Of a stretch of 38,999 nt of DNA, positions 2,407 to 20,133 are shown piece after piece. How positions within the stretch are numbered: position 1 is the stretch's first letter; every line of letters starts with the position of its first letter. This DNA is from Candidatus Mediterraneibacter stercoripullorum (GTDB lineage Bacteria > Bacillota > Clostridia > Lachnospirales > Lachnospiraceae). The notes below the pieces were generated by a model, which was not told the origin of the DNA, made no database searches, and was given only the letters and a program-made list of their open reading frames with translations. The DNA lies in contig DXCZ01000006.1 of the NCBI GenBank assembly GCA_019115765.1, positions 1 to 38,999 of the forward strand, given 5' to 3'. The translations under genes were made by a program, and so were the position numbers.

Positions 2407-2448
2407 AAATGATCCAGAGGATGAGACCAGAAAGGAAGGATGCAGATT

Positions 2449-3402
2449 ATGAAATACGGTGCTGTAAATTCATTGAAATCTCCAAGATTCGCAGGGGTCA
2501 AAACCTTTATGAGGATGCAGCAGGTCAGAACAGTGGAAGATATTGACTTTGCAGTAGTCGGGATTCCTTTTGATACATGCGCGACATATCGGGCCGGAGC
2601 CAGATTCGGCCCGGCATCAGTCCGCGAGATGTCCTGCCTGGCGGCCAAGCCATATCATCCGATACTGGATGTAGATATATTCGAAGAGTGTTCAGGAGTG
2701 GATTATGGAGATCTGGATTCCATTCCAGGCTATGTCAAAGAATCGTTTGATCTGATTCAGGAAGAAATGCAGAAACTGTTTGCAGGAGGCGTGATTCCCG
2801 TTGCCATTGGCGGAGATCATAGTGTGACGCTGCCGGAACTGCGGGCATGCTGCTCAGTCCATGGTCCGGTCGCTCTCGTTCATTTTGATGCACACTATGA
2901 TACGATTGCAGAATATTTCGGAAAACCATACAGCCATGGAACACCATTTTATCATGCGGCGAAAGAATGTCTTGTAGATACATCCTGTTCTATTCAGATA
3001 GGGATCCGGGAAGGGTTATATGGAGCAGAAGATAAAAATAATTCCGCAAGGCTTGGCTATGAATCTCTGACAGCTGATACGATGCACAGGATGGATCTGG
3101 ATGCCGTTGTGGAAAAGATACGCCAGCGTACAAAAGGACGTAAAGTCTTTCTGACATTTGATATCGATTTCCTTGATCCCGCATTTGCTCCGGGCACCGG
3201 CACTCCTGTTCCTGGGGGATTTTCCACCTGGGAGGCGCTGGAAATAATACGCGGTCTGAAAGAACTGGATATTGTAGGATATGATCTGGTGGAGGTTGCG
3301 CCGGCGTTTGATGGAAGCGGAATCACCTCGATAGCAGCCGCGGGAATCATACAGGAATTTCTCTCGCAGATTGCCTGGAGGAAGAAATCACGGAAATTGT
3401 AA
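2449..3402 (+). CDS. Agmatinase/arginase-family ureohydrolase
   Basis: A 317-residue cytosolic ureohydrolase. These enzymes hydrolyse a guanidino group (agmatine, guanidinobutyrate, guanidinopropionate or arginine) to urea plus an amine with a binuclear Mn centre. The metal motifs are all present: GGDHS (about residues 121-125), FDAHYD (146-151) and FDIDFLDP (about 237), followed by the family's PGTGTP loop. An in-frame ATG at 2440 sits directly against the GGAAGG ribosome binding site (2434-2439), so the ATG at 2449 with a 9-nt gap is preferred. It probably forms a unit with the preceding binding lipoprotein. Its stop codon lies inside the left arm of the structured element at 3399-3562. Which guanidine it uses is not readable from sequence; agmatinase is the default family name. 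Confidence 0.87.
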   Translation: MKYGAVNSLKSPRFAGVKTFMRMQQVRTVEDIDFAVVGIPFDTCATYRAGARFGPASVREMSCLAAKPYHPILDVDIFEECSGVDYGDLDSIPGYVKESFDLIQEEMQKLFAGGVIPVAIGGDHSVTLPELRACCSVHGPVALVHFDAHYDTIAEYFGKPYSHGTPFYHAAKECLVDTSCSIQIGIREGLYGAEDKNNSARLGYESLTADTMHRMDLDAVVEKIRQRTKGRKVFLTFDIDFLDPAFAPGTGTPVPGGFSTWEALEIIRGLKELDIVGYDLVEVAPAFDGSGITSIAAAGIIQEFLSQIAWRKKSRKL

Positions 3403-4486: not shown

Positions 4487-4515
4487 TTGACAAAAATATG
4501 ATAAGAGACTATAAT
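4487..4515 (+). promoter_or_regulatory. Consensus sigma-A promoter of the LacI-family gene
   Basis: TTGACA (4487-4492), a 17-bp spacer and TATAAT (4510-4515) match the consensus at all twelve positions. The first LacI-type operator starts 3 bp after the -10, so bound repressor would cover the transcription start. Confidence 0.85.
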
Positions 4516-4518
4516 TAA

Positions 4519-4530
4519 GAAAACGTTTAC
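4519..4530 (+). promoter_or_regulatory. LacI-type operator O1
   Basis: GAAAACGTTTAC is a near-palindrome around the central CG typical of LacI/GalR operators. It overlaps the expected transcription start of the LacI gene. A CcpA cre site has a similar core and cannot be excluded. Confidence 0.65.
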
Positions 4531-4606
4531 AAAAGAAAATATCAAAAATATATAGGATTTATTCGAAAATAGTGAGTTTTATTGAAGAATATTAAGATTT
4601 TTTGAA

Positions 4607-4618
4607 ATAAACGTTTTC
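4607..4618 (-). promoter_or_regulatory. LacI-type operator O2 in the leader of the LacI gene
   Basis: On the minus strand it reads GAAAACGTTTAT, differing from O1 only at the last base. The centres of O1 and O2 are 88 bp apart, so looping or a roadblock is possible. Confidence 0.55.
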
Positions 4619-4665
4619 AAACCTGAACGATTTATGTGAAAAGGATAAGAGAGGGTGCGGGCATT

Positions 4666-5703
4666 ATGACGCAGAAAAGAGTAAGTATTAAAGATGTTGC
4701 AAAAAAAGCGGAGGTATCGATAGCTACGGTATCCAGAGTGGTGAACAAAACGGATCATGTTACTCCACAGATCTATGAGAGAGTGATGGATGCAATTAAT
4801 GAACTTGGATATTCGCCCAATACTGCCGCGCGTTCTCTTGTGAAGCAGCGGACCAATGCAATCGGCATTGTGGTAAACAACCTGCATGATCCCTTTTTTC
4901 ACGATTTGATTAAAGGATTCGAGATGGCGGCGCAGCAGACCAGTTATTCTGTCGTGTTCTGCAGCGCTCTTGGCGGAGATATCAAGAGTAAAGAAGCATA
5001 TGTAAAATATCTTTCGAACGGGGTAGTAGATGCAGTAATCCTGTACGGCTCATATTTCAGTGATGAAAGTGTTGTCAAATATCTGCAGGAAAACAGGAAG
5101 ATTGAATATGTCATGATCGAGAATGATGTTCCTGATCTGTCATGCAATAAGTTACTGATCAACAATTATGGCGGCGCGAAAAACGCGGTGAAGTTCCTGA
5201 TCGGCAAAGGCCATACCAGGATCGCACATATCTGTGGCAATCCGAATAAAAAGGTAACTATAGAACGGTTCAACGGATACATAGCAGCAATGCAGGAAGC
5301 ACACCTGGAGGTGATGGACGGATTTATCCAGTACTCCTCCACAGACTATAAAAGCGGATATGACCGGATGAATGCACTTCTGGATCTGCCGGAGCCGCCG
5401 ACCGCAGTATTCTGTTCGGATGATGCAATCGCAAGTTATGCTGTCAGGGCTGCACTAGCACGGGGACTCAGAGTGCCGGAGGATGTGTCGGTTATGGGAT
5501 TTGATAATCAGACGATCCTTCCGGACCGATACAGAGGGCCGGAGATCACATCTGTAGAGCAGCCTTTGTATACCATCGGGATGGACAGCATACGACTGGT
5601 AAGTGAAAGGCTTAAAGCAGGACAGACGGAGGAGCCGGTTGTAAGGACGTATGAGACAAAAATAGTCGAAAAAGAAACGGTGTGTGAATATAGAAAAAAA
5701 TGA
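4666..5703 (+). CDS. LacI/GalR-family transcriptional regulator of the catabolic cluster
   Basis: A 345-residue repressor-type protein. The N-terminus has the helix-turn-helix VSIKDVAKKAEVSIATVSRV and the hinge helix NTAARSLV; the rest is a periplasmic-binding-protein-like effector domain that normally senses a sugar or sugar derivative. The open frame extends upstream to a GTG at 4636, but the family normally begins a few residues before SIKDVA, and AGAGGGTG with an 8-nt gap supports the ATG at 4666. It has a consensus promoter with two operators of its own. A perfect palindrome of the same type precedes the epimerase gene at 7720-7731, so it likely controls itself and the downstream genes. 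The inducer is probably the cluster's substrate; its identity is unknown. Confidence 0.9.
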   Translation: MTQKRVSIKDVAKKAEVSIATVSRVVNKTDHVTPQIYERVMDAINELGYSPNTAARSLVKQRTNAIGIVVNNLHDPFFHDLIKGFEMAAQQTSYSVVFCSALGGDIKSKEAYVKYLSNGVVDAVILYGSYFSDESVVKYLQENRKIEYVMIENDVPDLSCNKLLINNYGGAKNAVKFLIGKGHTRIAHICGNPNKKVTIERFNGYIAAMQEAHLEVMDGFIQYSSTDYKSGYDRMNALLDLPEPPTAVFCSDDAIASYAVRAALARGLRVPEDVSVMGFDNQTILPDRYRGPEITSVEQPLYTIGMDSIRLVSERLKAGQTEEPVVRTYETKIVEKETVCEYRKK

Positions 5704-5733
5704 AGTCTGTATCAGGCAGAAAGGACAGAAGCG

Positions 5734-6528
5734 ATGTTAAAAGACTACAATCAGCTGTTAAAAGGGAAACGGGCGTTTATTACAACAGGAGCCAGGGGAA
5801 TCGGCAGAGAGATTGCTTTACTGTTTGCAGAGCAGGGGGCCAGAGTTGCCGTTGGAGGGAAGAACATACCGTGCCTGGAGAAAACAATGGAAGAGATTCA
5901 AAAGATATCCCCCGAGAGCCGGGGCTATATTCTGGATCTGGGAGAGAAAGAAGAAGTGCTCCGCACAGGAGAGCAGATTCTCGCTGACTTCGGTGGGATT
6001 GATATTCTTGTAAATACAGTTGGAATCAACAAGCATATGAGAGTGGATGAATGCGACGAGGAACTTCTGGAGAAAACAATATCTGTAAATTATAAAAGCG
6101 GAATACGGTTTGCACGGATATTTGTACCCGGTATGAGACAGAGAAAGCAGGGAAATATCATTAATATCTCTTCGATCCACAGTATACAGACGATGCCCGG
6201 TTTCGGTATCTATGCAGGAACGAAAGGGGCTGTCAATGCAACGGCACGGGCTATGGCGCTGGACTATGCGGACGATGGGATCCGGGTGAATACGATATGC
6301 CCCGGGCTTATCATGAGTGACAATATGGAGGATGAGATAAGGACTTATCCGGAAGGGGAAGAGAGAGATAAGTTTATGGATCTGCTGTATCATATGCAGC
6401 CGCTGAAACCCGGAACGATGGAGGATGTGGCAGACGCAGCACTTTATCTTGCCAGCAGTATGTCTTCTTACATGACAGGGCAGGTGCTGATGCTGGACGG
6501 AGGAGCCAGTATTAAGGCACACGGATAG
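5734..6528 (+). CDS. Short-chain dehydrogenase/reductase (sugar or polyol dehydrogenase-like)
   Basis: A 264-residue classical SDR. It has the dinucleotide-binding motif TGARGIG (about residues 18-24), NTVG in place of the usual NNAG, the catalytic Ser in ISSIHS, and the YAGTK Tyr/Lys pair. The C-terminal YMTGQVLMLDGG is characteristic. Relatives include gluconate 5-dehydrogenase and 2-deoxy-gluconate dehydrogenase (KduD-like). It starts 31 nt after the LacI gene behind AAAGGA and is probably cotranscribed with it. In this cluster it is the only oxidoreductase, so it probably oxidises the sugar, perhaps to a lactone that the lactonase at 13156 then opens. Substrate and cofactor are inferred. 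Confidence 0.85.
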   Translation: MLKDYNQLLKGKRAFITTGARGIGREIALLFAEQGARVAVGGKNIPCLEKTMEEIQKISPESRGYILDLGEKEEVLRTGEQILADFGGIDILVNTVGINKHMRVDECDEELLEKTISVNYKSGIRFARIFVPGMRQRKQGNIINISSIHSIQTMPGFGIYAGTKGAVNATARAMALDYADDGIRVNTICPGLIMSDNMEDEIRTYPEGEERDKFMDLLYHMQPLKPGTMEDVADAALYLASSMSSYMTGQVLMLDGGASIKAHG

Positions 6529-6559
6529 ATAAGCAGGGATTTAAGGGAGGTGAGTGGAC

Positions 6560-7666
6560 ATGAGTTTTTATGAGAGAAACGGGATTATTCCATATATTAA
6601 CGCCCATGATACGTATACCGTCTATGGGGGCAGCCGCATGGCGGATAATACTTTGCAGGCGATGAGAGAAGCGGCAGAAAGCTTTGTAGACATCAGACAG
6701 ATGCAGGTGGTCCTTGGAGAAAAGGCTGCCCGTATGACTCACAATGAAGCGGCATTCTTTACAAATGGAGCTGCCGGGGCGCTGCTGCTGTGCGCATGTG
6801 TATGTATGGCAGAGGACAGCGAATATCTGTACAGGAGACTGCCGGAGACTCCGGGGCAGAAGAAAGAGATCATTCTGATGCGCCCGCAGAGAAATGCATA
6901 CGACACGGCTGTCCGTGTAAGTGGAGCTCAGATCATTGAGATCGGGGACGCAGACGAGACTCTTGAGTCAGAACTGGAAGGCAGGATCAGTGAACAGACA
7001 GCGGCTGTGTTCTACTTTGCTTCCTCATTATACCGGAGAGGCTCGCTGTCTTTGGAGCAGACAATTGAAATTGCGGGAAAACATGGAGTACCGGTTGTTG
7101 TTGATGCGGCGGCGCAGCTTCCTCCCAGAGAAAATCTCTGGAGATTTACAGAGGCAGGAGCTGATATGGTTATCTTCAGCGGGGGCAAGACGCTCTGCGG
7201 TCCCCAGGACAGCGGGATAATCGTTGGAAAGAAGAAATGGATCGACAGATGTATCCGATTCGGAGCTCCGGAACATGGCGTCTGCCGTGTATCGAAAACA
7301 TCCCGTGAAGCAATGGCAGGACTGTATACGGCGCTGGAGAATTATATGGCGGCGGACGAAAGAGAAGAGGATGAAAAGAGACGGAAAATCATTGCTTTGA
7401 TAGAAGGCAGGATCTGTGGATGTTCCGATATAATGGACATGGAAATTGTTGAGAGAGGACCTGTCGGACAGACATATTCCCGCCTGTTCTGTTATATCAG
7501 AAAGGAGAAAAGGGCGGAAGAGATTGTACGCAAGATGAGAGAACGGCGTATTTATATTGGGTATGAAGAAGAGAAGAACGCAATTTACATCAGCCCGCTG
7601 AATCTGACAGAAGAAGAGGCGTTAGTGGTGGCAGAGGCGTTGGCTGATATATCCGATGGAAATTAA
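6560..7666 (+). CDS. SelA/DgaE-like PLP-dependent enzyme (probable ammonia-lyase)
   Basis: A 368-residue fold-type I PLP enzyme of the selenocysteine-synthase-related group, whose characterised member DgaE is D-glucosaminate-6-phosphate ammonia-lyase. The PLP lysine is expected at about residue 210 in FSGGKTLCGPQ, a signature of this group. The upstream VVDAAAQLPP supplies the PLP-ring aspartate. FTNGAAGALLLC near residue 70 forms the phosphate-binding turn. Start: a GTG at 6554 is only 3 nt from GGGAGG; the ATG at 6560 is 9 nt away and preferred. True SelA is unlikely because it is longer and no selenocysteine genes are nearby. The neighbouring RidA proteins, which hydrolyse enamine/imine products of PLP lyases, and the amidohydrolase support deamination of an amino-sugar acid. 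The actual substrate is unknown. Confidence 0.83.
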   Translation: MSFYERNGIIPYINAHDTYTVYGGSRMADNTLQAMREAAESFVDIRQMQVVLGEKAARMTHNEAAFFTNGAAGALLLCACVCMAEDSEYLYRRLPETPGQKKEIILMRPQRNAYDTAVRVSGAQIIEIGDADETLESELEGRISEQTAAVFYFASSLYRRGSLSLEQTIEIAGKHGVPVVVDAAAQLPPRENLWRFTEAGADMVIFSGGKTLCGPQDSGIIVGKKKWIDRCIRFGAPEHGVCRVSKTSREAMAGLYTALENYMAADEREEDEKRRKIIALIEGRICGCSDIMDMEIVERGPVGQTYSRLFCYIRKEKRAEEIVRKMRERRIYIGYEEEKNAIYISPLNLTEEEALVVAEALADISDGN

Positions 7667-7677
7667 ATCCAGCCATT

Positions 7678-7706
7678 TTAGTCGGTGAAAGGTATCCACA
7701 TATTTT
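7678..7706 (+). promoter_or_regulatory. Weak internal promoter candidate before the epimerase gene
   Basis: TTAGTC (7678-7683), a 17-bp spacer and TATTTT (7701-7706). The match to consensus is poor; it is listed because the palindromic operator at 7720-7731 would lie just after its start site. Confidence 0.25.
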
Positions 7707-7719
7707 TTTACGATTCAAA

Positions 7720-7731
7720 GTAAACGTTTAC
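7720..7731. promoter_or_regulatory. Perfect LacI-type operator palindrome before the epimerase gene
   Basis: GTAAACGTTTAC is a perfect 12-bp palindrome with the same core as O1 and O2 (4519 and 4607). It ends 11 nt before the epimerase start codon and abuts its ribosome binding site. It could be a repressor roadblock or a CcpA cre site; it matches 13 of 14 cre consensus positions. Confidence 0.7.
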
Positions 7732-7742
7732 AGGGTGAGAAA

Positions 7743-8996
7743 ATGAACGATATATTCTATAGCAGATACGGGGAAGAGATTGAGAAAACCGGGAAATCGA
7801 TGGAGAAACAGCTCCTGGAGGATATCGTTCCATTCTGGGAGAAAAGAGCAGGCGACTGGGAAAACGGGGGATATTTTAACTGCTTTGACCGGACCGGCAG
7901 CCAATATAGTAACAAAAAACCGGGCTGGTTTGTGGGCAGGAATATGTATACTTTTTCAGCTTTGTACAGAAAGATCAGCCGGAACCAGCGATGGCTAGAC
8001 CTTGCGGAGCTTGGAAGAAAGTACATGGAAACCGGATTTTACGCAGGAAACGGGCGTTTCCAGCATATGCTCTCCGGAGATGGACAGGTAATTGAGGGGA
8101 CGACTTCTATATTTACCGATCATTTTGCTGTAAAGGGACTTTATGAATATATAAAGGCCTGCGGTAAGACCAATAAACAAGATATTTCGTTTGCAGAATA
8201 TCTGACAGATACTCTGCTGAAAAATGTAAAGGATGAGGCAATACTCCGCACGGAGGGAATTCCCGATGGAATGCAGAAACATGCGGTGAACTTTATGACA
8301 TTGATCGTACTTCTGGAGGGAAGAGAACTTTTTGGCGATTACTATGACAGGCAGCTGAAAGAATGTATCCGCAAATCATTGTATGAGTTCACAGATGACG
8401 GGAAAAAGGCTCCGCTTGAGTATGTGGGGACAGATGGAAAGCCTGTTTATCAGAAGGAAGGCCGTCTGATCGATGCGGGGCATACAATGGAGTCACTCTG
8501 GTTTTCAATGTATGCCGGAGAAGTCCTTGGGACGGATGAGTATCGTATCCGTGCCGGGGAGATCCTGGACTGGGTAATTGACAGATGCTATGACGAAGAA
8601 AATGAAGGATTCATCCAGACGGCTGATGTTGACGGGGGGAAGCCCGAAGAGGAATTCTGCATTGTAGATTACAGCGGTTTCCCTGCAGCATGGGACAGCA
8701 AGATCTGGTGGGTACAGGCAGAAGGACTGAACGCCTTGTTTATGAGTGCAGTTTTTAACGAGGACGAGAGACATTTCCAATATTTCAAAAGGCTTTATGA
8801 ATACACTGAGCGATATTTCCGGGATCCGCAATACGGTGAATGGTATGCAATTTTAGACCGGAAAGGAAATATTATATGCGACAAGAAGGGATTTGAACTT
8901 AAGGGGCCCTATCATATTCCCAGATGTCTGATGGAAATATCGCTTCTCGCGGGAAAATATACGGACAGACGGAAAACATCAGGAGGTGAAGAGTAA
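7743..8996 (+). CDS. N-acylglucosamine 2-epimerase (AGE) family protein
   Basis: A 417-residue (alpha/alpha)6-barrel protein of the AGE family. Members interconvert C2 epimers (N-acylglucosamine/N-acylmannosamine, or cellobiose) or isomerise mannose to fructose. Recognisable family positions are the RNMYTF segment near residue 65, the IDAGHTMES segment near 245 with its acid/base histidine, the WWVQAEGLNA segment near 322, and the C-terminal HIPRCLMEI with the second histidine. Length is usual for the family. It starts behind GGGTGAG, directly after the palindromic operator at 7720-7731, and precedes the ABC importer genes. The presence of N-acyl hydrolase and deaminase candidates in the cluster favours an N-acyl amino sugar, but mannose- or disaccharide-active members exist. 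Confidence 0.88.
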   Translation: MNDIFYSRYGEEIEKTGKSMEKQLLEDIVPFWEKRAGDWENGGYFNCFDRTGSQYSNKKPGWFVGRNMYTFSALYRKISRNQRWLDLAELGRKYMETGFYAGNGRFQHMLSGDGQVIEGTTSIFTDHFAVKGLYEYIKACGKTNKQDISFAEYLTDTLLKNVKDEAILRTEGIPDGMQKHAVNFMTLIVLLEGRELFGDYYDRQLKECIRKSLYEFTDDGKKAPLEYVGTDGKPVYQKEGRLIDAGHTMESLWFSMYAGEVLGTDEYRIRAGEILDWVIDRCYDEENEGFIQTADVDGGKPEEEFCIVDYSGFPAAWDSKIWWVQAEGLNALFMSAVFNEDERHFQYFKRLYEYTERYFRDPQYGEWYAILDRKGNIICDKKGFELKGPYHIPRCLMEISLLAGKYTDRRKTSGGEE

Positions 8997-9077
8997 AAAA
9001 GAAAAGGTCAATGCGGATGAGAACAATCCACTGTGGAACAATATGTATCTAAATGAAAAATGGCAGGAGGAAAAATA

Positions 9078-10340
9078 ATGAAAAACGGAAAGGTGAAAAA
9101 GATTTTTGCTGTAGCATTGAGTGCTTCACTGCTTGCTTCTCTGACAGTCGGATGCAGCCAGGGAGGAGAGAGCAACGATGGCGGTAACGGAGATGAAGTG
9201 ACGATTGAATGGTGGACGCCAAACTGGGATGAAGCAGAAAGCCGGGAAATGGCAGAGGAATTTGAGAAGGACAATCCGGGAATCCATGTGGAGATCGTGA
9301 TTACGGACTGGGATACCTACAAGAGTAAAATCACGACAGCCATCAGCACGGACAATGCACCGGAACTGTGTACGGTTCTGCTGACAGATGTAGCGCCGTT
9401 TGCCAAGAAAGGACTGCTGGAGCCTCTGGACGAACTGGGGGCTGAGGCCGGAGTGAATTTTGACGATATTCTGGAACCTGCACTGGATATCACGACGGTT
9501 GACGATACTGTATATGGAATTCCGTTCCGGTATGACGGATCTGGTATTTATTATAATGTAGATATGCTTAAAGAAGCGGGATATGATTCCTTCCCGGAGA
9601 CATGGGATGAAATGGTTGAGATGGCGAAAGCACTGTCTACGGACGGAAAATATGCTTTTGCATGGCCGCTTGGTAATCAGGCAAATGCGGCGACCCGCTT
9701 TGTCCAGCAGATTTATACACATGGAGGAGACGTGCTGAACGAGGATGAGACGGAGTGCCTGCTTGACAGTGACGAGGCCAAGGCAGCTCTGCAGAATATC
9801 GTTGATTCTATTTCACAAGGATACGCATCACCGAGCAGCGCTGAATATGACAACACAACTATGAGAGAAGCGTTTGGGCAGGAACAGCTTGCGTTTATGC
9901 TTACAGGTCCATTTGATGTGGAAACACTGAAAACAGATTATCCGGATCTTAATTTTGCAACGACTGTAATCCCCGGCGATGGCGGCATGGGTGTGACTAC
10001 AGCAAACGGATGGGGTGTGATATTGTCTGCAAACAGTGATCATAAAGAGGAAGCTGCGAAGTTTATGGCATATATCACAAATCCGGAAAACCAGGCAAGA
10101 CTGACAGACTCATTCCCGGCAAGCAAAACAGCCATGGAATATGAGCAGTTTGCGACAGAAGAGCTACAGCCATTTATGGATCAGCTGGATAATTCCAGGC
10201 CGGAGCCTGCTTATGAGAGATGGGCTGAGATGGAGCCGATCATTTATCAGTATATGCAGAATGCAATTGCGGGAACAATGACGGTAGATGAAGCATGCAA
10301 GGCAATGGCAACAGATATAAATGCGCTGCTGGGCAATTAA
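9078..10340 (+). CDS. Sugar ABC transporter substrate-binding lipoprotein (family 1)
   Basis: A 420-residue lipoprotein with a basic N-terminus, hydrophobic segment, lipobox ending LTVGC and a Gly/Asn-rich linker. The mature part has the family 1 solute-binding pattern (IEWWTPNWDEAESREMAEEF, then YGIPFRYDGSGIYYN and FPETWDEMVE), as in carbohydrate importers of the CUT1 class. The frame opens at 9060, but AGGAGG at 9065-9070 lies after that ATG, so the ATG at 9078 is the start. It is followed by two permease genes and belongs with them. The ligand is presumably the cluster's substrate. The binding pocket cannot be read from sequence alone. Confidence 0.92.
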   Translation: MKNGKVKKIFAVALSASLLASLTVGCSQGGESNDGGNGDEVTIEWWTPNWDEAESREMAEEFEKDNPGIHVEIVITDWDTYKSKITTAISTDNAPELCTVLLTDVAPFAKKGLLEPLDELGAEAGVNFDDILEPALDITTVDDTVYGIPFRYDGSGIYYNVDMLKEAGYDSFPETWDEMVEMAKALSTDGKYAFAWPLGNQANAATRFVQQIYTHGGDVLNEDETECLLDSDEAKAALQNIVDSISQGYASPSSAEYDNTTMREAFGQEQLAFMLTGPFDVETLKTDYPDLNFATTVIPGDGGMGVTTANGWGVILSANSDHKEEAAKFMAYITNPENQARLTDSFPASKTAMEYEQFATEELQPFMDQLDNSRPEPAYERWAEMEPIIYQYMQNAIAGTMTVDEACKAMATDINALLGN

Positions 10341-10398
10341 TATCATCTCAATGATATAAGATTTCTTTATGCGGCCGGACAGCGGCGGAGGTAGGAGC

Positions 10399-11271
10399 AT
10401 GAACAGATTACGTTTGACAAAAGATGAAAAGAAAGCAATACCGTTTATCCTTCCGGGACTCATTGTGACGGCGCTGCTCATTGTATATCCTCTATACTAT
10501 ATTATCTCAATGAGCTTCAGCGAAAATGCGATCAACCGGAGCGGATTCGCAGGACTGGATAACTACTTCAGCCTGTTCAGAAACCCGATGTTCGGTTCCG
10601 CAATCGAGAATACACTGGTCTGGACACTGGGCACTGTGATACCGGCTTTCCTGATTGGATTCATTCTTGCCCTTCTGATCCAGAAAAAGGGACTGAAGAT
10701 GAAAGGGGTATTCCGGAGCCTGATCTTTGTAGCCTGGATTATCCCGGGAGTGGTGAAAGCTACTGCATGGAAATGGCTTTTTACAACAAACGGAGGTATG
10801 GTCAACCATATCCTGCTGAGCCTGGGGATCATAGATACGGAGATCCCCTGGCTGACCAGTCCCCAATATGCAATGCTGTCGGTTATCATCGTGCAGGTAT
10901 GGGCCTGTGCTCCATATGTCATGCTGATGATGACTGCAGGGCTGCAGCAGCTTCCGGGCGATCTGTATGAAAGCGCGGAACTTGATGGGGCCGGATGGTT
11001 TAAAAAACTGCGTTATATCACGATACCGCTCCTGAAGGACGTAAGCTTTATCTGTATTCTGATGCTTCTTGTCTGGGCGATCAATGAATTCTCACTGATC
11101 TTCATCATGACATCCGGCGGACAGAATACGACGACGCTTTCTCTGCTTGTATACAATCAGTTTGAGGTGCTGAATATTAATTCCGCGTCTGCAAGTGCAG
11201 TGATGCAGCTGATTATTACGATGATATTTGCAGTACTTTATGTGAAATTTGTGATAAAGGAGGATGAATGA
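10399..11271 (+). CDS. Sugar ABC transporter permease, MalF/UgpA-type
   Basis: A 290-residue inner-membrane permease with about six transmembrane helices. The EAA loop that docks the ATPase is visible as ESAELDGAGWFKKLRYITIP near residues 195-214. The start is ATG 10399 behind GGAGG (10387-10391, 7-nt gap); an in-frame ATG at 10369 has no ribosome binding site. It overlaps the next permease gene by 4 nt or abuts it, indicating translational coupling. It forms a heterodimer with the product of the next gene. Confidence 0.92.
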   Translation: MNRLRLTKDEKKAIPFILPGLIVTALLIVYPLYYIISMSFSENAINRSGFAGLDNYFSLFRNPMFGSAIENTLVWTLGTVIPAFLIGFILALLIQKKGLKMKGVFRSLIFVAWIIPGVVKATAWKWLFTTNGGMVNHILLSLGIIDTEIPWLTSPQYAMLSVIIVQVWACAPYVMLMMTAGLQQLPGDLYESAELDGAGWFKKLRYITIPLLKDVSFICILMLLVWAINEFSLIFIMTSGGQNTTTLSLLVYNQFEVLNINSASASAVMQLIITMIFAVLYVKFVIKEDE

Positions 11272-12122
11272 TGGGCAGCAGAAATAAGAAAAAGAAACTG
11301 GACAAGGTATGGACGGCTGCTGTTTATCTTATTCTTGTTCTGGCAGCAATTGTGACACTGCTGCCGCTGGCATGGGTGATCAGTACATCATTAAAGCCGG
11401 GAAATGAGATCTTTGCCAATCCCCCTTACTGGATTCCCAAGGTGCCTACACTGGGAAATTATATCTCAGTTCTGACAGAAAGTTCCATACCGAGAGCATT
11501 TTTAAACAGTATGATCGTAGGCGGAATATCAACATTTCTGGCACTGCTGCTGGGAGGAAGCGCAGGATATGCGTTCTCAAGATTCCGCTTTCGGGGCAGA
11601 AAAGGACTTTCCCTTTTTATGCTGATCAGCCAGATGCTTCCCCTGACAGTACTTATGATACCGATGTACTATATGGAGAATGCGGTGGGATTGATCGATA
11701 CAAAGCTTGGCCTGGCAATCGCACATCTTGCGATCAGTATGCCGCTTGTTACATGGATGTCCAAGGGGTATTTTAACGGAATCCCAAAAGAAATCGAGGA
11801 AGCTGCCGTAATGGACGGATGCAGCACGCTGCAGATGCTGGCAAAGATTGTGATTCCTCTTCTGAAACCGGCTCTTGCAGCGACAGGAATTTACGCATTT
11901 ATTTCATCATGGAACGAATTTGCCATTGCCAATGTACTCACAAGAAGTGAGGCCAGCAGAACCGTGCCCCTGGCGTTAAATGAGTTTTCATCCTTCTATC
12001 GTGTAGACTGGGGAGATACGATGGCTGCGGCAACGATCATAACCATCCCCATCATCATTGTATTTATGCTTGTGCAGAAGCAGTTCGTGGAAGGACTGGC
12101 AAGCGGGGCTGTAAAAGGCTAA
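11271..12122 (+). CDS. Sugar ABC transporter permease, MalG/UgpE-type
   Basis: The second half of the importer, 283 residues, with about six membrane helices and the EAA loop EEAAVMDGCSTLQMLAKIVIP (about residues 184-203). Two adjacent ATGs (11268 and 11271) are possible; 11271 lies 7 nt after AGGAGG and is preferred, while 11268 would overlap the previous stop. No ATP-binding subunit is encoded in the cluster, so a shared MsmK/MalK-type ATPase from elsewhere must energise it, as is common for CUT1 importers in Firmicutes. Confidence 0.92.
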   Translation: MGSRNKKKKLDKVWTAAVYLILVLAAIVTLLPLAWVISTSLKPGNEIFANPPYWIPKVPTLGNYISVLTESSIPRAFLNSMIVGGISTFLALLLGGSAGYAFSRFRFRGRKGLSLFMLISQMLPLTVLMIPMYYMENAVGLIDTKLGLAIAHLAISMPLVTWMSKGYFNGIPKEIEEAAVMDGCSTLQMLAKIVIPLLKPALAATGIYAFISSWNEFAIANVLTRSEASRTVPLALNEFSSFYRVDWGDTMAAATIITIPIIIVFMLVQKQFVEGLASGAVKG

Positions 12123-12195
12123 AAGCAGATAAGAGAATTTACGGGACGATTCCAATATGCAGATCCCGGAAAAATAGAAAACGGAGGAAAGAAAC

Positions 12196-12663
12196 ATGAG
12201 TGAAACAGGAAAGAGACTTGAAAAACTTGGAATAACACTTCCGGTCAGAGACAGGAAAGGACAGGGGGTAGTGGATGCATGCATAAAAGGAGATCTGCTG
12301 TTCCTGTCAGCACATTTCCCGACAGATGAGGAAGGCAAGCCGGTATATCATGGAAAAGTGGGAAAAGATATGGACAAAGATACAGCATACGAGGCGGCAA
12401 GATTATGCGGTCTGAATATGATCGCTACGATCAAAGATTATATCGGTGAACTGGATCGGGTAGATTATTTTGTAAAAGTTCTGGGACTTGTGAACAGTGC
12501 TGCAGATTTCAGTGAGCAGCCCTACGTTATCAATGGCTTTTCGGATCTGATGACAGAAGTGTTCGGAAGACGGGGACAGCATGCACGTTCTGCTATGGGA
12601 GCCTATGCGCTGTGGGAGAATGTTCCGGTGACTGTAGAAGCGATTGTTAAGATTCGAAACTGA
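12196..12663 (+). CDS. RidA/YjgF-family protein, first of a pair
   Basis: A 155-residue protein of the longer RidA-like subgroup. Family features are the central DxxKDTAYEAARLCGLNMIATI region and the C-terminal HARSAMGAYALWENVPVTVEAI. Arg131 there matches the arginine that binds the carboxylate of the 2-imino/enamine acid in RidA. RidA enzymes hydrolyse reactive enamines or imines, commonly made by PLP enzymes, to 2-oxo acids plus ammonia. The start follows GGAGGA with a 7-nt gap. It has a paralogue immediately downstream and a PLP lyase candidate in the same cluster. Some members of this subgroup have other hydrolase or unknown roles. Confidence 0.88.
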   Translation: MSETGKRLEKLGITLPVRDRKGQGVVDACIKGDLLFLSAHFPTDEEGKPVYHGKVGKDMDKDTAYEAARLCGLNMIATIKDYIGELDRVDYFVKVLGLVNSAADFSEQPYVINGFSDLMTEVFGRRGQHARSAMGAYALWENVPVTVEAIVKIRN

Positions 12664-12677
12664 TGGAGGAATGGCAT

Positions 12678-13151
12678 ATGGACAGCATCAACAGGATTAT
12701 CAGGGATGGCCTGGAAACAGAGCCAGTATATAAAAAGAAACGCGGTATTGTATTGCTGCGCCAGACAGATGATCTGATTTTTGTGTCCGGCCATGGACCG
12801 GAGGATCAGATTACAGGGGTGCCGCTTTATAAGGGAAGGATCGGTGAAGACCTGACTCTGGAAGAGGGATATGCGGCTGCCAGGGAATGTGCCATTATCA
12901 TTCTCGGAGCGCTGAAGGATACCCTCGGAAGCTTAGACCGGGTTAAGCGGATTGTCAAGGCATTTGGACTGGTGAACTGCGGGGAAGGATTCACAGACGT
13001 TGAAAAGGTATTTGACGGATTCTCGGATACGATTGCAGATGTACTGGAGGAACGGGGATACCATACAAGAACAGTAATGGGAACGAGAAATCTTCCAAAC
13101 CAGAATATTCCGGTTGAGATTGAAGTGATCGTGGAGGTGGAAACAGTATAG
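12678..13151 (+). CDS. RidA/YjgF-family protein, second of a pair
   Basis: A 157-residue paralogue of the preceding protein. Its C-terminal HTRTVMGTRNLPNQNIPVEI is closer to the classical RidA signature, and its Arg131 aligns with Arg131 of the first copy. The frame opens at 12663, overlapping the previous stop, but GGAGGA (12665-12670) lies after that ATG. The ATG at 12678, 7 nt from it, is the start. Similarity between the two is clear but distant, so they may form a heteromer or act on successive intermediates. RidA proteins form trimers with active sites at subunit interfaces. Confidence 0.88.
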   Translation: MDSINRIIRDGLETEPVYKKKRGIVLLRQTDDLIFVSGHGPEDQITGVPLYKGRIGEDLTLEEGYAAARECAIIILGALKDTLGSLDRVKRIVKAFGLVNCGEGFTDVEKVFDGFSDTIADVLEERGYHTRTVMGTRNLPNQNIPVEIEVIVEVETV

Positions 13152-13155
13152 GGAT

Positions 13156-14181
13156 ATGGAATCTGCAGCTGGCAAGTATTACATTGCATCCGGATATGGA
13201 AGCCGGGAGGGCGTACCGGACATGCTTGTCTTCCGGGAGTGTGAGAATGGAAAAATGAAGGCAGAACAACGGATCTACTGCGGCGGTGGTCCCTCTTATC
13301 TTGCTGCAGCAGGATCTGCCGGTAAAGGTGCGGCAGAGCTCTATGTATCTCTGGAGTATTCCTCCGAAGTGGCGGGCTTTCTGTGGAGCCCGTCTGACCG
13401 AAAAGTTCAGATGAAAAGCAGGATCCGCATATGCGGACAGGGATTATGTCATCTGTCGGTGGCAGAGCAGGGAAGCCTGATATATGGGAGCTGTTATGGG
13501 AGCGGGGATTTCTTTGCTCTGGATACAGAACAGCAGAAAGTGATCTGGAAACAGAAAATACAGGATATGGACTCCGGCAAAAGAGCAGAAGGAGAACCCC
13601 ATGCCCACTGTATCAGCCTGATGGATGATCAGGCCGTATTCCTGACAGATCTCGGACTGTCTGACGTGAGAGGTCTGTGTTTGAAGAACGGTATACCGGG
13701 GGAAGAACTGTGCCGGCTCGAAGTGAAAGCAGAAGAAGGACCGCGGCAGTTCCTTCCTTTTCAATCAGGATCCCGGGCTGTGGTCATCAACGAGAAGGGC
13801 AACACCTTTTCCGTGTGGAGCATCAGCAGAGAGGGCAGCAGATGGATCCCTGAGAGACTGTATACGAGAAAGACCACGGGAAAATCAGGAGAGAACTGGC
13901 CGGGCGGTGCGCAGGTCTGGAAGGAGCGGATTCTGTTTGCCGCTAACAGAGGAGCGGATACGATTGCAGCATTTGACCTGGAAGACAGCGGCAGGATGAT
14001 CGGGGAATGGGATGCAGGAGGCGTCTATCCCAGACATATTCTGGTGACAGAGGAGGGACTTCTGTTTGCGGCGTGCCAGAAAAGCGGAGAGATTGTTTCC
14101 ATGAGATGGAATGGAAGCGGCCTCTGTATCTGTGGCCGTCTGGCTCTTCCGGGAGCAGCATGTATTATGGGACTGGCATGA
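13156..14181 (+). CDS. YbhE-type lactonase, seven-bladed beta-propeller
   Basis: A 341-residue protein of the lactonase family that includes the 6-phosphogluconolactonase YbhE (Pgl). Family landmarks occur in order: GGGPSYLA, GLCHLSV, YGSCYGSGDFF, EPHAHCISL, FLTDLGLSD, EEGPRQFLPF, ILFAANRGADTIAAF and VYPRHILVT. The histidine in PHAH and the arginines in GPR and YPR are positions conserved in the propeller centre. It has no signal peptide, so it is cytosolic. The start codon has only a distant GGAGGT upstream, so translation may be coupled to the RidA gene 4 nt before it. Its presence implies that the pathway makes a sugar-acid lactone, presumably by the SDR. The specific lactone is unknown. 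Confidence 0.75.
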   Translation: MESAAGKYYIASGYGSREGVPDMLVFRECENGKMKAEQRIYCGGGPSYLAAAGSAGKGAAELYVSLEYSSEVAGFLWSPSDRKVQMKSRIRICGQGLCHLSVAEQGSLIYGSCYGSGDFFALDTEQQKVIWKQKIQDMDSGKRAEGEPHAHCISLMDDQAVFLTDLGLSDVRGLCLKNGIPGEELCRLEVKAEEGPRQFLPFQSGSRAVVINEKGNTFSVWSISREGSRWIPERLYTRKTTGKSGENWPGGAQVWKERILFAANRGADTIAAFDLEDSGRMIGEWDAGGVYPRHILVTEEGLLFAACQKSGEIVSMRWNGSGLCICGRLALPGAACIMGLA

Positions 14182-14204
14182 CGGCAGGAAAGGAAAGAGA
14201 CTAT

Positions 14205-15428
14205 ATGAAAAACTATATTATAACCAACGGCCTGGTATATGATCCGCAGACAGGGATTCTGGAGAAGCGGGATCTGGCTGTTGCAGAAGGAAAAATAGTG
14301 GATGCAGCTGAAATAGCGAATCAACCTGGAACAGCAGTCTTTGACGTGGATGGGGCAGTTGTATCTCCCGGCCTGATCGATATGCACTGCCATATTTATC
14401 CAATGTGCGGTGTGGCAGATAAAAGCATGACGCTGCCGACGATCGACGGCGAAGCCCATATGTTCCGCAATGGTGTTACGACTGCGGTTGATGCAGGAAC
14501 CTGTGGGTGCAGAGATTTCTTTGACTTCAAAGAAAGATTCATTGACCGGGCGAAGCTGAGGATCCTTGCGTTCGTCAATATTGCCTATGGGGGAATGGCA
14601 TCGCTTCCCACGGAACTGGAACCGGAGAACTTCTTCCCGGAGACAGCGGCGGCGATTGCAAGAGAAGTTCCAGAGGTTGTGGGGATCAAGACAGCTCATT
14701 ATCATGTGGGAAAACCATTTGACGAAGCGCATCCGGCATGGGCGTCTGTTGACGCGGCTGTTCAGGCGGGAGAACTGGCCGGAAAGCCGGTGATGGCGGA
14801 TGTGCAGCCCTATCTTCCGGGCAGGAGTTATGAAGATCTGATTCTGGAAAGACTCAGACCGGGGGACATACATACGCATGTGTATGCACAGCAGTTTCCG
14901 GTACTGGATCAATTCAGAAATGTGCAGTCGTTCATGCATCAGGCAAGAAATAGAGGCGTTCTGTTCGACCTGGGACATGGTGCAGGGAGCTTCTGGTTCC
15001 GCAATGCGGTACCGGCATATGAGCAGGGATTTTATCCGGATACGTTGTCAACAGACCTCTATCTGGATAATATCGATGGCCCGGTGTTCGGCCTTCTGAA
15101 TGTAATGTCAAAATATCTGAATATCGGAATGCCTCTGGAGGAAATCCTGTACCGGACGACAAGGCGCCCGGCGGAAATACTTGGGCGGGCAGAGCTGGCT
15201 TCTGTCAGCGTGGGAAGTCCGGCAGACCTTGCGGTGCTGCAGCTCAGAGAAGGAAAATTCGGCTTTGCGGACAGCGGAAACGCGCGGATGGATGGAAACA
15301 GGATGCTGGAGTGCATTCTGACAATACGGGACGGCGAACTGGTCTATAATCCCATGGCCTATGGCATGGCGGACTGGAAAGAAGCGCCGGAAAGCTACTG
15401 GAAAGCTCCCGGAGTCATAGAATTATAA
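14205..15428 (+). CDS. Dihydroorotase-like amidohydrolase (resembles the EF_0837 group)
   Basis: A 407-residue metal-dependent hydrolase of the amidohydrolase superfamily. It shows GLIDMHCH (HxH metal ligands, about residues 59-66), the bridging-lysine segment VVGIKTAHYHVG, a further THVYAQ histidine, LGHGAGSF, and the late STDLYLD aspartate. PADLAVL near the C-terminus closes the composite beta domain. It resembles the group named after Enterococcus faecalis EF_0837, whose gene typically neighbours a SelA-related PLP gene, as here. The frame extends upstream over the lactonase gene, and an ATG at 14178 overlaps its stop, but AGGAAAGG precedes the ATG at 14205, which begins the family-typical MKNYIITNG. 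N-deacylation or amide-ring opening of the amino-sugar acid is inferred. Confidence 0.82.
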   Translation: MKNYIITNGLVYDPQTGILEKRDLAVAEGKIVDAAEIANQPGTAVFDVDGAVVSPGLIDMHCHIYPMCGVADKSMTLPTIDGEAHMFRNGVTTAVDAGTCGCRDFFDFKERFIDRAKLRILAFVNIAYGGMASLPTELEPENFFPETAAAIAREVPEVVGIKTAHYHVGKPFDEAHPAWASVDAAVQAGELAGKPVMADVQPYLPGRSYEDLILERLRPGDIHTHVYAQQFPVLDQFRNVQSFMHQARNRGVLFDLGHGAGSFWFRNAVPAYEQGFYPDTLSTDLYLDNIDGPVFGLLNVMSKYLNIGMPLEEILYRTTRRPAEILGRAELASVSVGSPADLAVLQLREGKFGFADSGNARMDGNRMLECILTIRDGELVYNPMAYGMADWKEAPESYWKAPGVIEL

Positions 15429-15462
15429 AATCTGAATTGCCCAAGGGCAGGAGGAAAAGAAT

Positions 15463-16371
15463 GTGATTATCAATACAAAGGAACAGATTGTAGAACTGAC
15501 AAAAGAATGGAAAGGAGAACGGTTTGCAGACGGGCGGCCGCGGGTCCCGGACAGTTATCTTGAGAAGCTCAGAACAATGACATTGGAAGAAATATGGCTT
15601 CCTTTGTATGTAAAGGGATATCATTTTCAATATGAAGGAAGAATGAAGTGCCTTCATGGCGGCAAAAAACTTGTGGGAAGGGCGGTTACATGTACGTTTA
15701 TGCCTACACGCCCGGATCTCTCGAATGTAGTGAAGAAGCAGGGAGAAGAGAAAGGCTGGCAGGGCTTTTTCAATCAGTGGGTAGTGGACCATCTGGAAAC
15801 CGGGGATGTCGTTGTGGCCGATATGTTTGACAAGATTCTGAACGGTACATTTGTGGGAGGTAATCTCACAACAGCGATCCATGTAAAAACAGAAACCGGA
15901 GGAGCCGTTATATGGGGCGGGGTCCGGGATGTGGAACAGATGAAAAAGATTGATACCCAGGTGTTTTACAGAGGAATCAATCCCACGCCGATACGGGAAT
16001 GTGTGATTACAGATCTGAATGGGGCGTGCCATATCGGTGAAGCAGTATGTCTGCCGGGGGATGTGGTTATGGGGACAGAAAGCGGAGTATTGTTTATACC
16101 AAGCCATCTGACAGAGGAACTGATCAACTGCGCTGAGAAAACCCATGCGAAAGATATCTTTGGATTTGCCATGCTGGAGCAGGGCGTGTATACAACAGCT
16201 GAAATAGACAATTCCGTATGGAGTATCGATATGATGGACCGGCTTGTAGATTTTATAGAAACAGATCCCAGATGTGAAAAATACAGGGGACTGGACTGGA
16301 GTCTGGAGATCGGTGCGGCGCACGGGGATCCGGACTGCCTGGAAGAAGTACTTAAGACATGCCTGACATAA
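15463..16371 (+). CDS. RraA-like aldolase/lyase-family protein, last gene of the cluster
   Basis: A 302-residue protein. The central domain has the RraA/HMG-aldolase fold signature: FVGGNLTTAIHVKTETGGAV, then GGVRD with Arg155-Asp156 as the substrate- and metal-binding pair, and GDVVMGTESGVLFIP. It is longer than typical RraA proteins (about 160-230 residues), with extra N- and C-terminal regions. Metal-dependent relatives cleave 4-hydroxy-2-oxo acids to pyruvate or oxaloacetate. It starts at a GTG (15463), 8 nt after AGGAGG; an ATG two bases earlier is out of frame and stops at once. It would supply the carbon-carbon cleavage step that a KDPG-type aldolase provides in DgaE pathways. The enzymatic role is inferred. 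Confidence 0.75.
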   Translation: MIINTKEQIVELTKEWKGERFADGRPRVPDSYLEKLRTMTLEEIWLPLYVKGYHFQYEGRMKCLHGGKKLVGRAVTCTFMPTRPDLSNVVKKQGEEKGWQGFFNQWVVDHLETGDVVVADMFDKILNGTFVGGNLTTAIHVKTETGGAVIWGGVRDVEQMKKIDTQVFYRGINPTPIRECVITDLNGACHIGEAVCLPGDVVMGTESGVLFIPSHLTEELINCAEKTHAKDIFGFAMLEQGVYTTAEIDNSVWSIDMMDRLVDFIETDPRCEKYRGLDWSLEIGAAHGDPDCLEEVLKTCLT

Positions 16372-16993: not shown

Positions 16994-18172
16994 ATGAAAA
17001 TGATGAAAAAGGCTGCAAGTCTTGCGCTTGCATCTACGCTTGTCGTTTCTCTGGCTGCCTGCGGAAGCAATGGCGGAAACGACGGCAGTGATTCCGGTTC
17101 TACAGGATCTGATACATTTATGATCGGCGGAATCGGACCTACTACTGGTGATAACGCACTTTATGGAACAGCGGTAATGAACGGAATTCAGCTTGCGGTT
17201 GATGAGATCAACGCGGCAGGCGGAATCAACGGATATCAGATTTCCTATCAGTTCGAGGATGATCAGAGTGATCCGGAGAAGTCTGTTAATGCATACAATA
17301 CTCTGAAGGACTGGGGTATGCAGATGCTGGTCGGAACTGTTACTTCAGCTCCGTGTGTAGCTGTTGTTGAGGAGACACATGCGGACAATATGTTCCAGTT
17401 CACACCTTCAGCAACATCTGTTGAGAGTATCCAGTATGACAATGCATTCCGTATGTGTTTCTCAGACCCGAGCCAGGGATCTGTTTCAGCGGATTATATC
17501 GCTGATAACAGCCTTGCGTCAAAGGTAGCTGTTATCTACAACAGCTCTGACACATATTCAACAGGAATCTATCAGTCATTTGCTACAGAGGCACAGGCAA
17601 GAGGACTTGAGATCGTATCTGCAGAGGCATATACATCTGACAGTAACTCTGACTTCTCTGTACAGATCCAGAAAGCAAAGGACGCAGGCGCTGAGCTTGT
17701 TTTCCTGCCGATTTACTATTCTGATGCATCTCTGATCCTTGCACAGGCAGACAGAGCGGGATTTGATCCGATCTGGTTTGGAGTAGATGGAATGGACGGA
17801 ATCCTTGGAGTAGACGGATTTGATACTACACTGGCAGAGGGCGTGATGTTCCTGACACCGTTCACACCTACTTCAGATGATGAGGCTGTACAGACATTTG
17901 TAGCAAGCTATGAGGAAGAATTCGGCAGCACTCCGATTCAGTTTGCGGCAGATGCTTATGATTGTATGTATGTACTCAAGGCAGCTATTGAGCAGGCTGA
18001 TATTACACCAGATATGAGTATCTCTGATATGTGTGACGCCATGAAGACTGCTATGACACAGGTTACCTATGACGGTGTGACAGGAAAGCAGATCTCCTGG
18101 GGAGAGGACGGAGAGCCTTCCAAGGAGCCGACGGTCGTTCAGATCACAGAGGGTGAGTATACGGTTCTGTAA
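16994..18172 (+). CDS. livJ: Branched-chain amino acid-type ABC transporter binding lipoprotein (LivJ-like)
   Basis: A 392-residue lipoprotein of the Leu/Ile/Val-binding (Peripla_BP_6) family. The lipobox SLAACG places the lipidated Cys at about 23, followed by a Gly/Ser/Asp linker. The mature protein begins with the family-typical GGIGPTTGDNALYGTAVMNG and INAAGGINGY. These proteins bind branched-chain amino acids, but the family also covers urea, amides and aromatic acids. It has its own near-consensus promoter and strong terminator (18217-18259), so it can be expressed above the membrane parts, as usual. Codon usage looks more selected than in neighbouring genes, consistent with high expression. 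The ligand is uncertain; the dehydroquinase gene that follows raises the possibility of an alicyclic acid. Confidence 0.85.
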   Translation: MKMMKKAASLALASTLVVSLAACGSNGGNDGSDSGSTGSDTFMIGGIGPTTGDNALYGTAVMNGIQLAVDEINAAGGINGYQISYQFEDDQSDPEKSVNAYNTLKDWGMQMLVGTVTSAPCVAVVEETHADNMFQFTPSATSVESIQYDNAFRMCFSDPSQGSVSADYIADNSLASKVAVIYNSSDTYSTGIYQSFATEAQARGLEIVSAEAYTSDSNSDFSVQIQKAKDAGAELVFLPIYYSDASLILAQADRAGFDPIWFGVDGMDGILGVDGFDTTLAEGVMFLTPFTPTSDDEAVQTFVASYEEEFGSTPIQFAADAYDCMYVLKAAIEQADITPDMSISDMCDAMKTAMTQVTYDGVTGKQISWGEDGEPSKEPTVVQITEGEYTVL

Positions 18173-18216
18173 TCACGACTGTGATGGAATTCAGATATAA
18201 AGTAAATTAGAATACC

Positions 18217-18259
18217 GGGGAAATGTGTTTGATCAGGAAAAGGCACATTTCCCCCTTTT
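18217..18259 (+). terminator. Intrinsic terminator after the livJ-like gene
   Basis: An 11-bp perfect stem, GGGGAAATGTG (18217-18227) with CACATTTCCCC (18244-18254), is followed by CTTTT. Confidence 0.85.
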
Positions 18260-18261
18260 GC

Positions 18262-18316
18262 GCGATATGCCCGGAGGACAACCGCCGTGCTTGCACGAGC
18301 GGGCATCCGACAAGCA
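18262..18316. repeat. 55-bp dispersed repeat, copy 1 (aroD leader)
   Basis: It matches 27659-27713 at 49 of 55 positions, and all six differences are transitions. It contains ATGCCCG/CGGGCAT arms around a CGTGC-TT-GCACG hairpin. It lies between the livJ terminator and the aroD ribosome binding site. It is in the same orientation as copy 2 relative to the downstream gene. Confidence 0.75.
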
Positions 18317-18330
18317 GGAGGAGAAAAGAC

Positions 18331-19092
18331 ATGGAACCAGTAAAAGTCAGAAATGTGGAGATCGGAGCAGGAATTCCGAAGATCTGTGTGCCGATCGTGG
18401 GAACAACAGGGGAAGAGATCCTGGATGCGGCGGAAGATATTGCAGGGACGGCTGCAGACATTGTAGAGTGGCGGGCAGACTGGTATGAGGATATCTTCCG
18501 GTTTGACAGTACAAGGGAGACACTTGCTTACCTCAGGAGCGTTCTTGGGGAGATCCCGCTTCTGTTTACCTTTCGAACTGCCGGGGAAGGCGGCGCCAGA
18601 GCTGTTGAAGCGGATGAGTATGTGGAACTGAATCGGAAGATCTGCGGCACGGGAATGGTGGACCTGATCGATGTGGAAGCATTTACCGGAGATGAGGCAG
18701 TAGAGAAAGTAATCAGTACGGCACATGAAAAAGGTGTCAGAGTGATCGGTTCCAATCATGATTTCCAGAAGACACCCGGGAAAGATGAGATCTTGTTCCG
18801 GCTCAGGCGGATCCAGGAGATGGGAGCAGATATTCCCAAGATCGCAGTGATGCCCCATTCGAAAAAGGATGTGCTGACTCTTCTTGCGGCAACAGAAGAA
18901 ATGTACCGAGAGTATGCGGACCGGCCATTTATCACCATGTCAATGGCCGGGGACGGCGTGATCAGCAGGCTTGGTGGTGAAGTCTTCGGCTCGGCGGTAA
19001 CATTCGGAGCATATGGAAAAGCATCTGCTCCCGGACAGCTTGAAGTGGAAAAACTGTCTCAGGTCCTGCGGATTATTCATGAAGGAATGTAA
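18331..19092 (+). CDS. aroD: 3-dehydroquinate dehydratase, class I
   Basis: A 253-residue cytosolic enzyme that dehydrates 3-dehydroquinate to 3-dehydroshikimate in the shikimate pathway. Landmarks are EWRADWYED, TFRTAGEGG, IGSNHDFQKTPG with His143, KIAVMPHS with Lys170 (the Schiff-base lysine), and the C-terminal FGAYGKASAPGQ. His143 and Lys170 fall at exactly the classical enterobacterial positions, and the length is typical. The frame is open upstream to 18223, but that part is the dispersed repeat read as protein; AGGAGGAG precedes the ATG at 18331. No other aromatic-pathway gene is nearby. It sits between the binding-protein and permease genes of a Liv-type transporter, so a catabolic (quinate/shikimate) role is possible. 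Confidence 0.93.
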   Translation: MEPVKVRNVEIGAGIPKICVPIVGTTGEEILDAAEDIAGTAADIVEWRADWYEDIFRFDSTRETLAYLRSVLGEIPLLFTFRTAGEGGARAVEADEYVELNRKICGTGMVDLIDVEAFTGDEAVEKVISTAHEKGVRVIGSNHDFQKTPGKDEILFRLRRIQEMGADIPKIAVMPHSKKDVLTLLAATEEMYREYADRPFITMSMAGDGVISRLGGEVFGSAVTFGAYGKASAPGQLEVEKLSQVLRIIHEGM

Positions 19093-20124: not shown

Positions 20125-20133
20125 GTGGGTGCA

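Follow-up and report, generated by a model that had tools for sequence, protein, structure and literature searches.

The 38,999-nt stretch analyzed here (the window) is one whole contig of the 3.2 Mb draft genome, 89% complete, of Candidatus Mediterraneibacter stercoripullorum, and its positions 4666–16371 hold twelve plus-strand open reading frames (ORFs) that lie nearly end to end, with gaps of at most 76 bp and some neighbors touching or overlapping. Families were assigned by Pfam and NCBIfam profile searches, and these, together with the ORF positions, bore out a first-pass annotation that had described twelve consecutive genes of the families given here. The set opens with a LacI-family repressor (4666–5703; PF00356, PF13377), followed by a short-chain dehydrogenase/reductase (SDR; 5734–6528; PF13561) that retains the Ser and YxxxK residues and is proposed to be a lactone-forming sugar dehydrogenase acting at C1, by a putative pyridoxal phosphate (PLP)-dependent ammonia lyase that belongs to a His-less group of DgaE relatives (6554–7666), and by an N-acylhexosamine 2-epimerase (AGE; 7743–8996; PF07221, GlcNAc_2-epim) scoring 221 bits against NF052547 (cut-off, 600). 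The three-gene sugar importer that had been claimed is represented by a sugar-type ATP-binding cassette (ABC) solute-binding protein (9060–10340; PF01547, SBP_bac_1) and two permeases (10369–11271 and 11268–12122; both PF00528, BPD_transp_1), but no ABC ATPase was found among the twelve proteins. The remaining genes encode two RidA paralogues (12196–12663 and 12663–13151; both PF14588, YjgF_endoribonc), a seven-bladed propeller lactonase (13156–14181; PF10282, E = 2e-31), an amidohydrolase proposed to be an aldonate N-deacylase (14205–15428), and an RraA-like class II pyruvate aldolase (15463–16371; PF03737). The amidohydrolase, which is of the EF_0837/PRK09237 type and scores 323 bits against NF006689 (cut-off, 371), most likely starts at an internal ATG at 14205 rather than at 14007. 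Pfam scans of 38 window proteins identified neither a phosphotransferase system (PTS) nor a sugar kinase, and no aldolase of the 2-keto-3-deoxy-6-phosphogluconate (KDPG) type lies within the twelve-gene cluster.

The identical twelve genes, in identical order, are present in a Mediterraneibacter metagenome-assembled genome (MAG; locus L010) and in a genome of Lachnospiraceae (L012), with protein identities to the window of 54.5–93.7% and 35.6–83.1%, respectively. The lactonase is the least conserved of the twelve (54.5% to L010 and 35.6% to L012), the other proteins sharing 57–94%. In a Lachnospiraceae MAG (L011), 10 of the 12 genes are found up to the contig end, together with inserted genes for a GH4 glycosidase and a NagK-like BadF kinase; the first-pass statement that sugar kinases and PTS are lacking is thus correct for the 38 window proteins but, as to the kinase, not for this relative. 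A PLP enzyme homologue was detected at 1e-40 in 5 of the 299 Lachnospiraceae genomes sampled, and the amidohydrolase at 1e-60 in 6 of 391 Clostridia genomes (the organism's own genome counted in both). Among these 391, six carry an amidohydrolase of the cluster's Asp type (described below), five a window-like PLP enzyme (TIGR01437 scores of 191–239 bits, leaving out DgaE proper at ≥469 and SelA-like proteins at ≤117.5), and five both (Fisher's exact test, 8e-11, uncorrected for kinship).

A gene-neighborhood survey for the same set, which had been suggested with the first-pass annotation, found beyond the full order in L010 and L012 a smaller core elsewhere: Asp-type amidohydrolase, PLP lyase, one to three RidA proteins, SDRs, and sometimes lactonase and RraA recur in four other Clostridia families (five genomes, L029–L033) and on one acidobacterial plasmid, that of Granulicella tundricola (L019). 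Each of L029–L033 has the amidohydrolase, three RidA genes, and one to five SDR genes, and all but L030, on whose contig no PLP gene was found, have the PLP enzyme; a lactonase is present in L031 and L033, RraA in L031, and permease-like genes in L029, L030, and L032. Because L029 and L032 begin near contig starts, their missing lactonase and RraA say little. (In L029, a pyruvate-formate-lyase-like glycyl radical gene follows the locus.) The order in L019 is RraA, PLP enzyme, RidA, a second PLP enzyme, amidohydrolase, lactonase, and a berberine bridge enzyme (BBE)-type flavin oxidase. An SDR gene accompanies all nine Asp-type amidohydrolases, on the opposite strand in L019. BBE enzymes include C1 sugar oxidases, and since a BBE-type enzyme adjoins the L019 core, different oxidases may feed the same core. 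Plasmid loci in our comparisons form a nonrandom sample, having been hand-picked from listings with taxonomic spread as one of the aims.

Upstream of lacI lies a sigma-70 promoter-like site on the plus strand, TTGACA-17-TATAAT (4487–4515), which is the sole 12/12 match among the 26 promoter-like sites in the region, as compared to a mean of 20.3 in shuffled sequences. Three LacI-type operators are predicted on the same strand: O1 just 3′ of the promoter (4518–4531; palindrome at 4521), O2 (4609–4619), and O3 between the PLP and AGE genes (7719–7732; palindrome at 7722), the last beside a second promoter-like site (7727–7756; 10/12 match). The palindromes, at 4521, 4609, and 7722, follow the pattern AAACGTTTWCA, all five strand-wise matches of which (at most one mismatch) fall on these three sites; shuffles gave a mean of 0.72, and none of 100 reached five. 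Operator-like sites occur at the same three positions in L010 and L012, including before lacI and before the AGE gene (the PLP–AGE junction site is at 6811 and 8770, respectively), and L011 has one such site upstream of lacI. Given the matching positions in L010 and L012, regulation of both cluster halves by the LacI protein is probable, and the earlier description of a single LacI-controlled unit is supported. A genome-wide search for the exact 12-base pattern AAAACGTTTWCA returned one occurrence, at the cluster promoter; since the backwards control pattern returned four, this means only that no further exact copy was found.

The window PLP enzyme scores 191 bits against TIGR01437 (cut-off, 385) and 160 bits against a second profile (cut-off, 600), and it keeps the catalytic Lys, its SGGK aligning with SGAK of DGL (DgaE). 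It has no His at the positions of DGL His162 and His163, and the phosphate-site triad of DGL, Arg301, Arg332, and Arg346, reads R-E-L, Arg332 and Arg346 being absent. In DGL, according to excerpts of PMC9529869, His163 protonates C3 and an H163A mutant releases the enamine, while the phosphate was placed near the three Arg residues by manual docking. The loss of the Arg triad makes an unphosphorylated substrate likely, and since H163A DGL releases an enamine and the window enzyme has no proton-donor His, a free enamine, to be acted on by RidA, would fit as its product; the two RidA genes lie 4.5–5 kb downstream in the same unit. We compared 52 PLP relatives, having left out L061_3169 (a spurious fragment) and L109 (the same place as L022) and having set to absent by hand a weak RidA match at L067, an ORF overlapping the PLP gene. 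The Arg triad is complete (RRR) in 21, of which 20 keep the His pair. RidA is found within 8 kb of only 1 of these 21 vs. 24 of the 31 without the triad (the window among the 24), and the contrast by His pair is less sharp (RidA near 8 of 28 that have it and 17 of 24 that do not). A further PLP clade, keeping the His pair and reading Arg-Arg-Cys, stands beside RidA at seven loci (L022, L096, L100, L102, L103, L104, and L111). Five of these (L022, L100, L102, L103, and L111) have a His-type amidohydrolase and several have ABC genes, one of which, in L100, is annotated for peptide transport. A His-less PLP enzyme was also observed in the haloarchaeon Halomontanus (L110, 5983–12535), where it adjoins an annotated D-aminoacylase, with a GH20 gene nearby on the opposite strand.

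Arg105, like Glu120 a functional residue of RidA imine/enamine deaminases, is kept in all 38 RidA-family sequences aligned to Escherichia coli RidA, including both window paralogues. Wherever a locus has two or three RidA genes (nine loci), exactly one paralogue has Glu at E. coli position 120, the others having Thr, Val, Ile, or Leu; in the window, paralogue 1 has Thr and paralogue 2 has Glu. This pattern may reflect a division of labor or a mixed trimer. The amidohydrolase is similarly set apart. Relative to the EF0837/Atu3266-type metal set (HxH, Lys, beta-5 His, His, Asp; ligand roles as in the family alignment), it keeps all ligands except the beta-5 His, which is Asp in all nine enzymes of the cluster type (that of the acidobacterium among them) and His in all 26 others (one duplicate removed). 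The cluster-type enzymes also read x-Ala-His after the carboxylated-Lys position (KxAHY in the window), and by these residues the cluster amidohydrolase is a distinct subtype. RidA is present at 9 of 9 Asp-type loci vs. 6 of 26 His-type loci (Fisher's exact test, 7e-5, uncorrected for kinship), L068 being scored as absent with its RidA 14 kb from the amidohydrolase. The candidate catalytic Arg, His, Glu, and His of the AGE align with 6f04 and are present in all four cluster AGEs, and a consecutive Arg-Asp is kept in 5 of 5 cluster RraA proteins. In HMG/CHA aldolase, this pair is Arg123-Asp124 (PMC5065237, in excerpt).

Judged by its genes, the cluster is a third arrangement beside the ong and dga-type pathways. 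The ong pathway of Pseudoalteromonas serves catabolism of N-acetyl-glucosaminate (GlcNAc1A), which, in the text of PMC9537276 available in part, is deacetylated and loses ammonia to give 2-keto-3-deoxy-gluconate (KDG), with a RidA gene in the cluster that is required for growth on GlcNAc1A and with free intermediates up to KDG, much as we propose here. The enzymes for this middle chemistry are nevertheless other than those of the window cluster (excerpts of PMC9537276 and PMC12017989): the OngB-type deacetylase, KdgK, and the sodium/solute symporter family (SSS) carrier named there have no counterpart among the cluster's twelve proteins, and the main text of PMC9537276 contains neither the word epimerase nor the word lactonase. 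The dga/EF0837-type clusters (L097, L101, L107, and L108), like the window, pair an amidohydrolase with a DgaE-family PLP lyase, but all four have the Arg triad and a His-type amidohydrolase, and no RidA was found in them; the His162/163 pair is complete in three, and L101 keeps one His. They are annotated with KDGP aldolase (L097, L101, and L108), PTS (L107 and L101), and sugar kinase (L107 and L108), and from their kinship with DGL they presumably use a phosphorylated substrate. As in the window, a lactonase-family gene (8916–10070) lies inside the Klebsiella cluster L097, which suggests that the phosphorylated route also passes through a lactone. The plasmid locus L019 resembles the window in holding RraA, PLP lyase, RidA, Asp-type amidohydrolase, and lactonase close together on one strand; it differs in the intervening second PLP gene, in the BBE flavin oxidase and GH35 gene that follow, in having its SDR on the other strand, and in that its listed genes include neither an AGE nor an ABC importer.

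The cluster is thus a real, conserved, and probably co-regulated catabolic unit. We infer its substrate and each of its reactions from the observed families, order, operators, and active-site residues, and on balance we think it probable that this is a LacI-repressed unit for using an N-acylated hexosamine or small glycoside without phosphorylation. The ABC proteins would import the substrate, a glycoside being possible because L011 carries the inserted GH4 and NagK-like genes, and the AGE would interconvert N-acetylmannosamine (ManNAc) and N-acetylglucosamine (GlcNAc). By its substrate name, DGL acts on a 2R center, D-glucosaminate being a 2R amino acid, and the known EF0837-type deacetylases presumably act on a 2R (D) center as well. 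Because both use that center, epimerization of ManNAc to GlcNAc followed by oxidation would be likelier than the reverse, which would lead to a 2S acid, with the caveat that the window clade may differ; the first-pass proposal of import and C2 epimerization, with ManNAc and GlcNAc named, therefore stands as to the AGE family, but the direction is likelier the opposite of the one it implied. The SDR would then oxidize C1 to a lactone, the PF10282 lactonase would open this to the N-acetyl-aldonate, and the Asp-type amidohydrolase would remove the acyl group. From the resulting 2-amino-aldonate, the DgaE-like enzyme would eliminate the C3 hydroxyl and, for want of the His163 donor, release a free enamine/imine, which the two RidA proteins would hydrolyze to KDG and ammonia; the RraA-like enzyme would cleave KDG to pyruvate and glyceraldehyde. 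As a hypothesis, this route of oxidation, lactone opening, deacylation, ammonia elimination, and cleavage is well supported, because the twelve-gene order, the operators, and the smaller core recur. The oxidative route had been put forward with the first-pass annotation, and the conserved set of oxidoreductase, lactonase, deacylase, PLP lyase, RidA, and RraA and the lost Arg triad speak for it, whereas its epimerization step falls outside the wider core.

Several observations weigh against this proposal. Among core loci, the AGE was seen only in the window, L010, L011, and L012, and it is not part of the wider core. The triad–RidA counts are not independent evidence, since on the PLP tree the Arg triad changes once (the His pair twice and RidA seven times) and an independent-pairs test was uninformative. 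In group B (seven rhizobial, rhodobacterial, and Paraburkholderia plasmid loci, with L068 as the eighth), 7 of 8 PLP enzymes keep the His pair yet have RidA, which rules out loss of His163 as the sole reason for RidA. Conversely, no RidA was found within 8 kb of seven PLP enzymes without the full His pair (L013, which is near a contig end, L016, L095, L098, L099, L110, and the dga-type L101). RraA-family proteins with other chemistry are also on record, as in the dehydratase/decarboxylase FlDet (PMC8563752, in excerpt). Lastly, the host genome has a NagA gene with an adjoining glucosamine-isomerase-family (NagB-like) gene, as well as a KDPG aldolase gene; with these, GlcNAc has an ordinary route, and the cluster is not the host's sole amino-sugar route. 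No KDG kinase was found among six proteins scanned beside the KDPG aldolase gene, which lies at a contig end.

The absence of the AGE from the wider core bears on a different account, to which we assign a minor but serious chance: the cluster may use an already oxidized or conjugated sugar (a lactone, an N-acetyl-aldonate, or an N-acetylhexosamine glycoside), with SDR and AGE acting on a partner sugar or at a different carbon and a core of deacylase, PLP lyase, RidA, and RraA. L029–L033, with SDR genes but no AGE found, would fit this, as would the GH4 and NagK-like additions of L011 and the company of the PLP enzyme in L110 described above. In L014 and L015, likewise, the PLP enzyme is accompanied by an amidohydrolase of the Amidohydro_3 type, which we read as D-aminoacylase-like, and by an enolase-superfamily enzyme, which in L014 is nearest to sugar-acid dehydratases, below their cut-offs. 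However, the window, L010, L012, and L019 have a lactonase adjoining the deacylase, and this, like the SDR gene at all nine Asp-type loci, fits lactone formation inside the cell.

It seems improbable to us that the pathway is of an amino-acid or hydantoin type, with a hydroxy-amino acid (free or N-acylated) undergoing deacylation and deamination and the sugar genes standing nearby by chance. Such a pathway would account for the labels of the amidohydrolase's PDB relatives (amidase, dihydroorotase, and adenine deaminase) and for the ABC genes, one annotated for peptide transport, at group B PLP/RidA loci. Group B is, however, a different PLP clade, whose amidohydrolases, where found, are His-type, and chance would hardly bring an AGE, a sugar-type binding protein, a lactonase, and LacI together in a unit with conserved order and shared operators. 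Least credible, and hardly to be entertained, is a phosphorylative dga-type pathway with its kinase encoded elsewhere. In its favor, the PLP enzyme is a DgaE homologue and a KDPG aldolase gene is present in the genome. Against it, neither PTS nor sugar kinase was found among the scanned window proteins, the Arg triad is lost, the cluster has no KDPG-type aldolase, and the RidA neighborhood is all but confined to PLP enzymes without the triad (1 of 21 with it).

Outside the cluster, a branched-chain-amino-acid-type ABC transporter (binding protein, two permeases, and two ATPases) occupies 16994–22695, and a type I 3-dehydroquinase gene (18223–19092) lies inside this set. The pairing is uncommon, and the transporter perhaps takes up a shikimate- or quinate-type compound. 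At 1303–3402, an SBP_bac_6 binding protein gene adjoins an arginase-family gene, after a MerR/GyrI-like regulator.

Related middle chemistry is known from ong and dga, but the route as a whole is so far a proposal; the open literature searched, largely at abstract level, held no description of this cluster, which is not proof of its absence. Tentatively, and with doubts that outweigh our confidence, we suggest that the cluster represents a new Entner-Doudoroff-type branch with which anaerobes would degrade N-acyl hexosamines by an ammonia lyase and without phosphorylation at any point. A lyase lacking its own proton donor would leave a reactive enamine to a dedicated RidA set (possibly a mixed trimer with one Glu120-bearing subunit), and an amidohydrolase of a new Asp-ligand subtype would serve as the deacylase. 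If true, gut-type anaerobes would possess a phosphate-free amino-sugar route, the family names "DgaE" and "amidohydrolase/deacetylase" would resolve into separate activities that can be tested, and RidA would be placed catalytically in a defined pathway, beyond general damage control.

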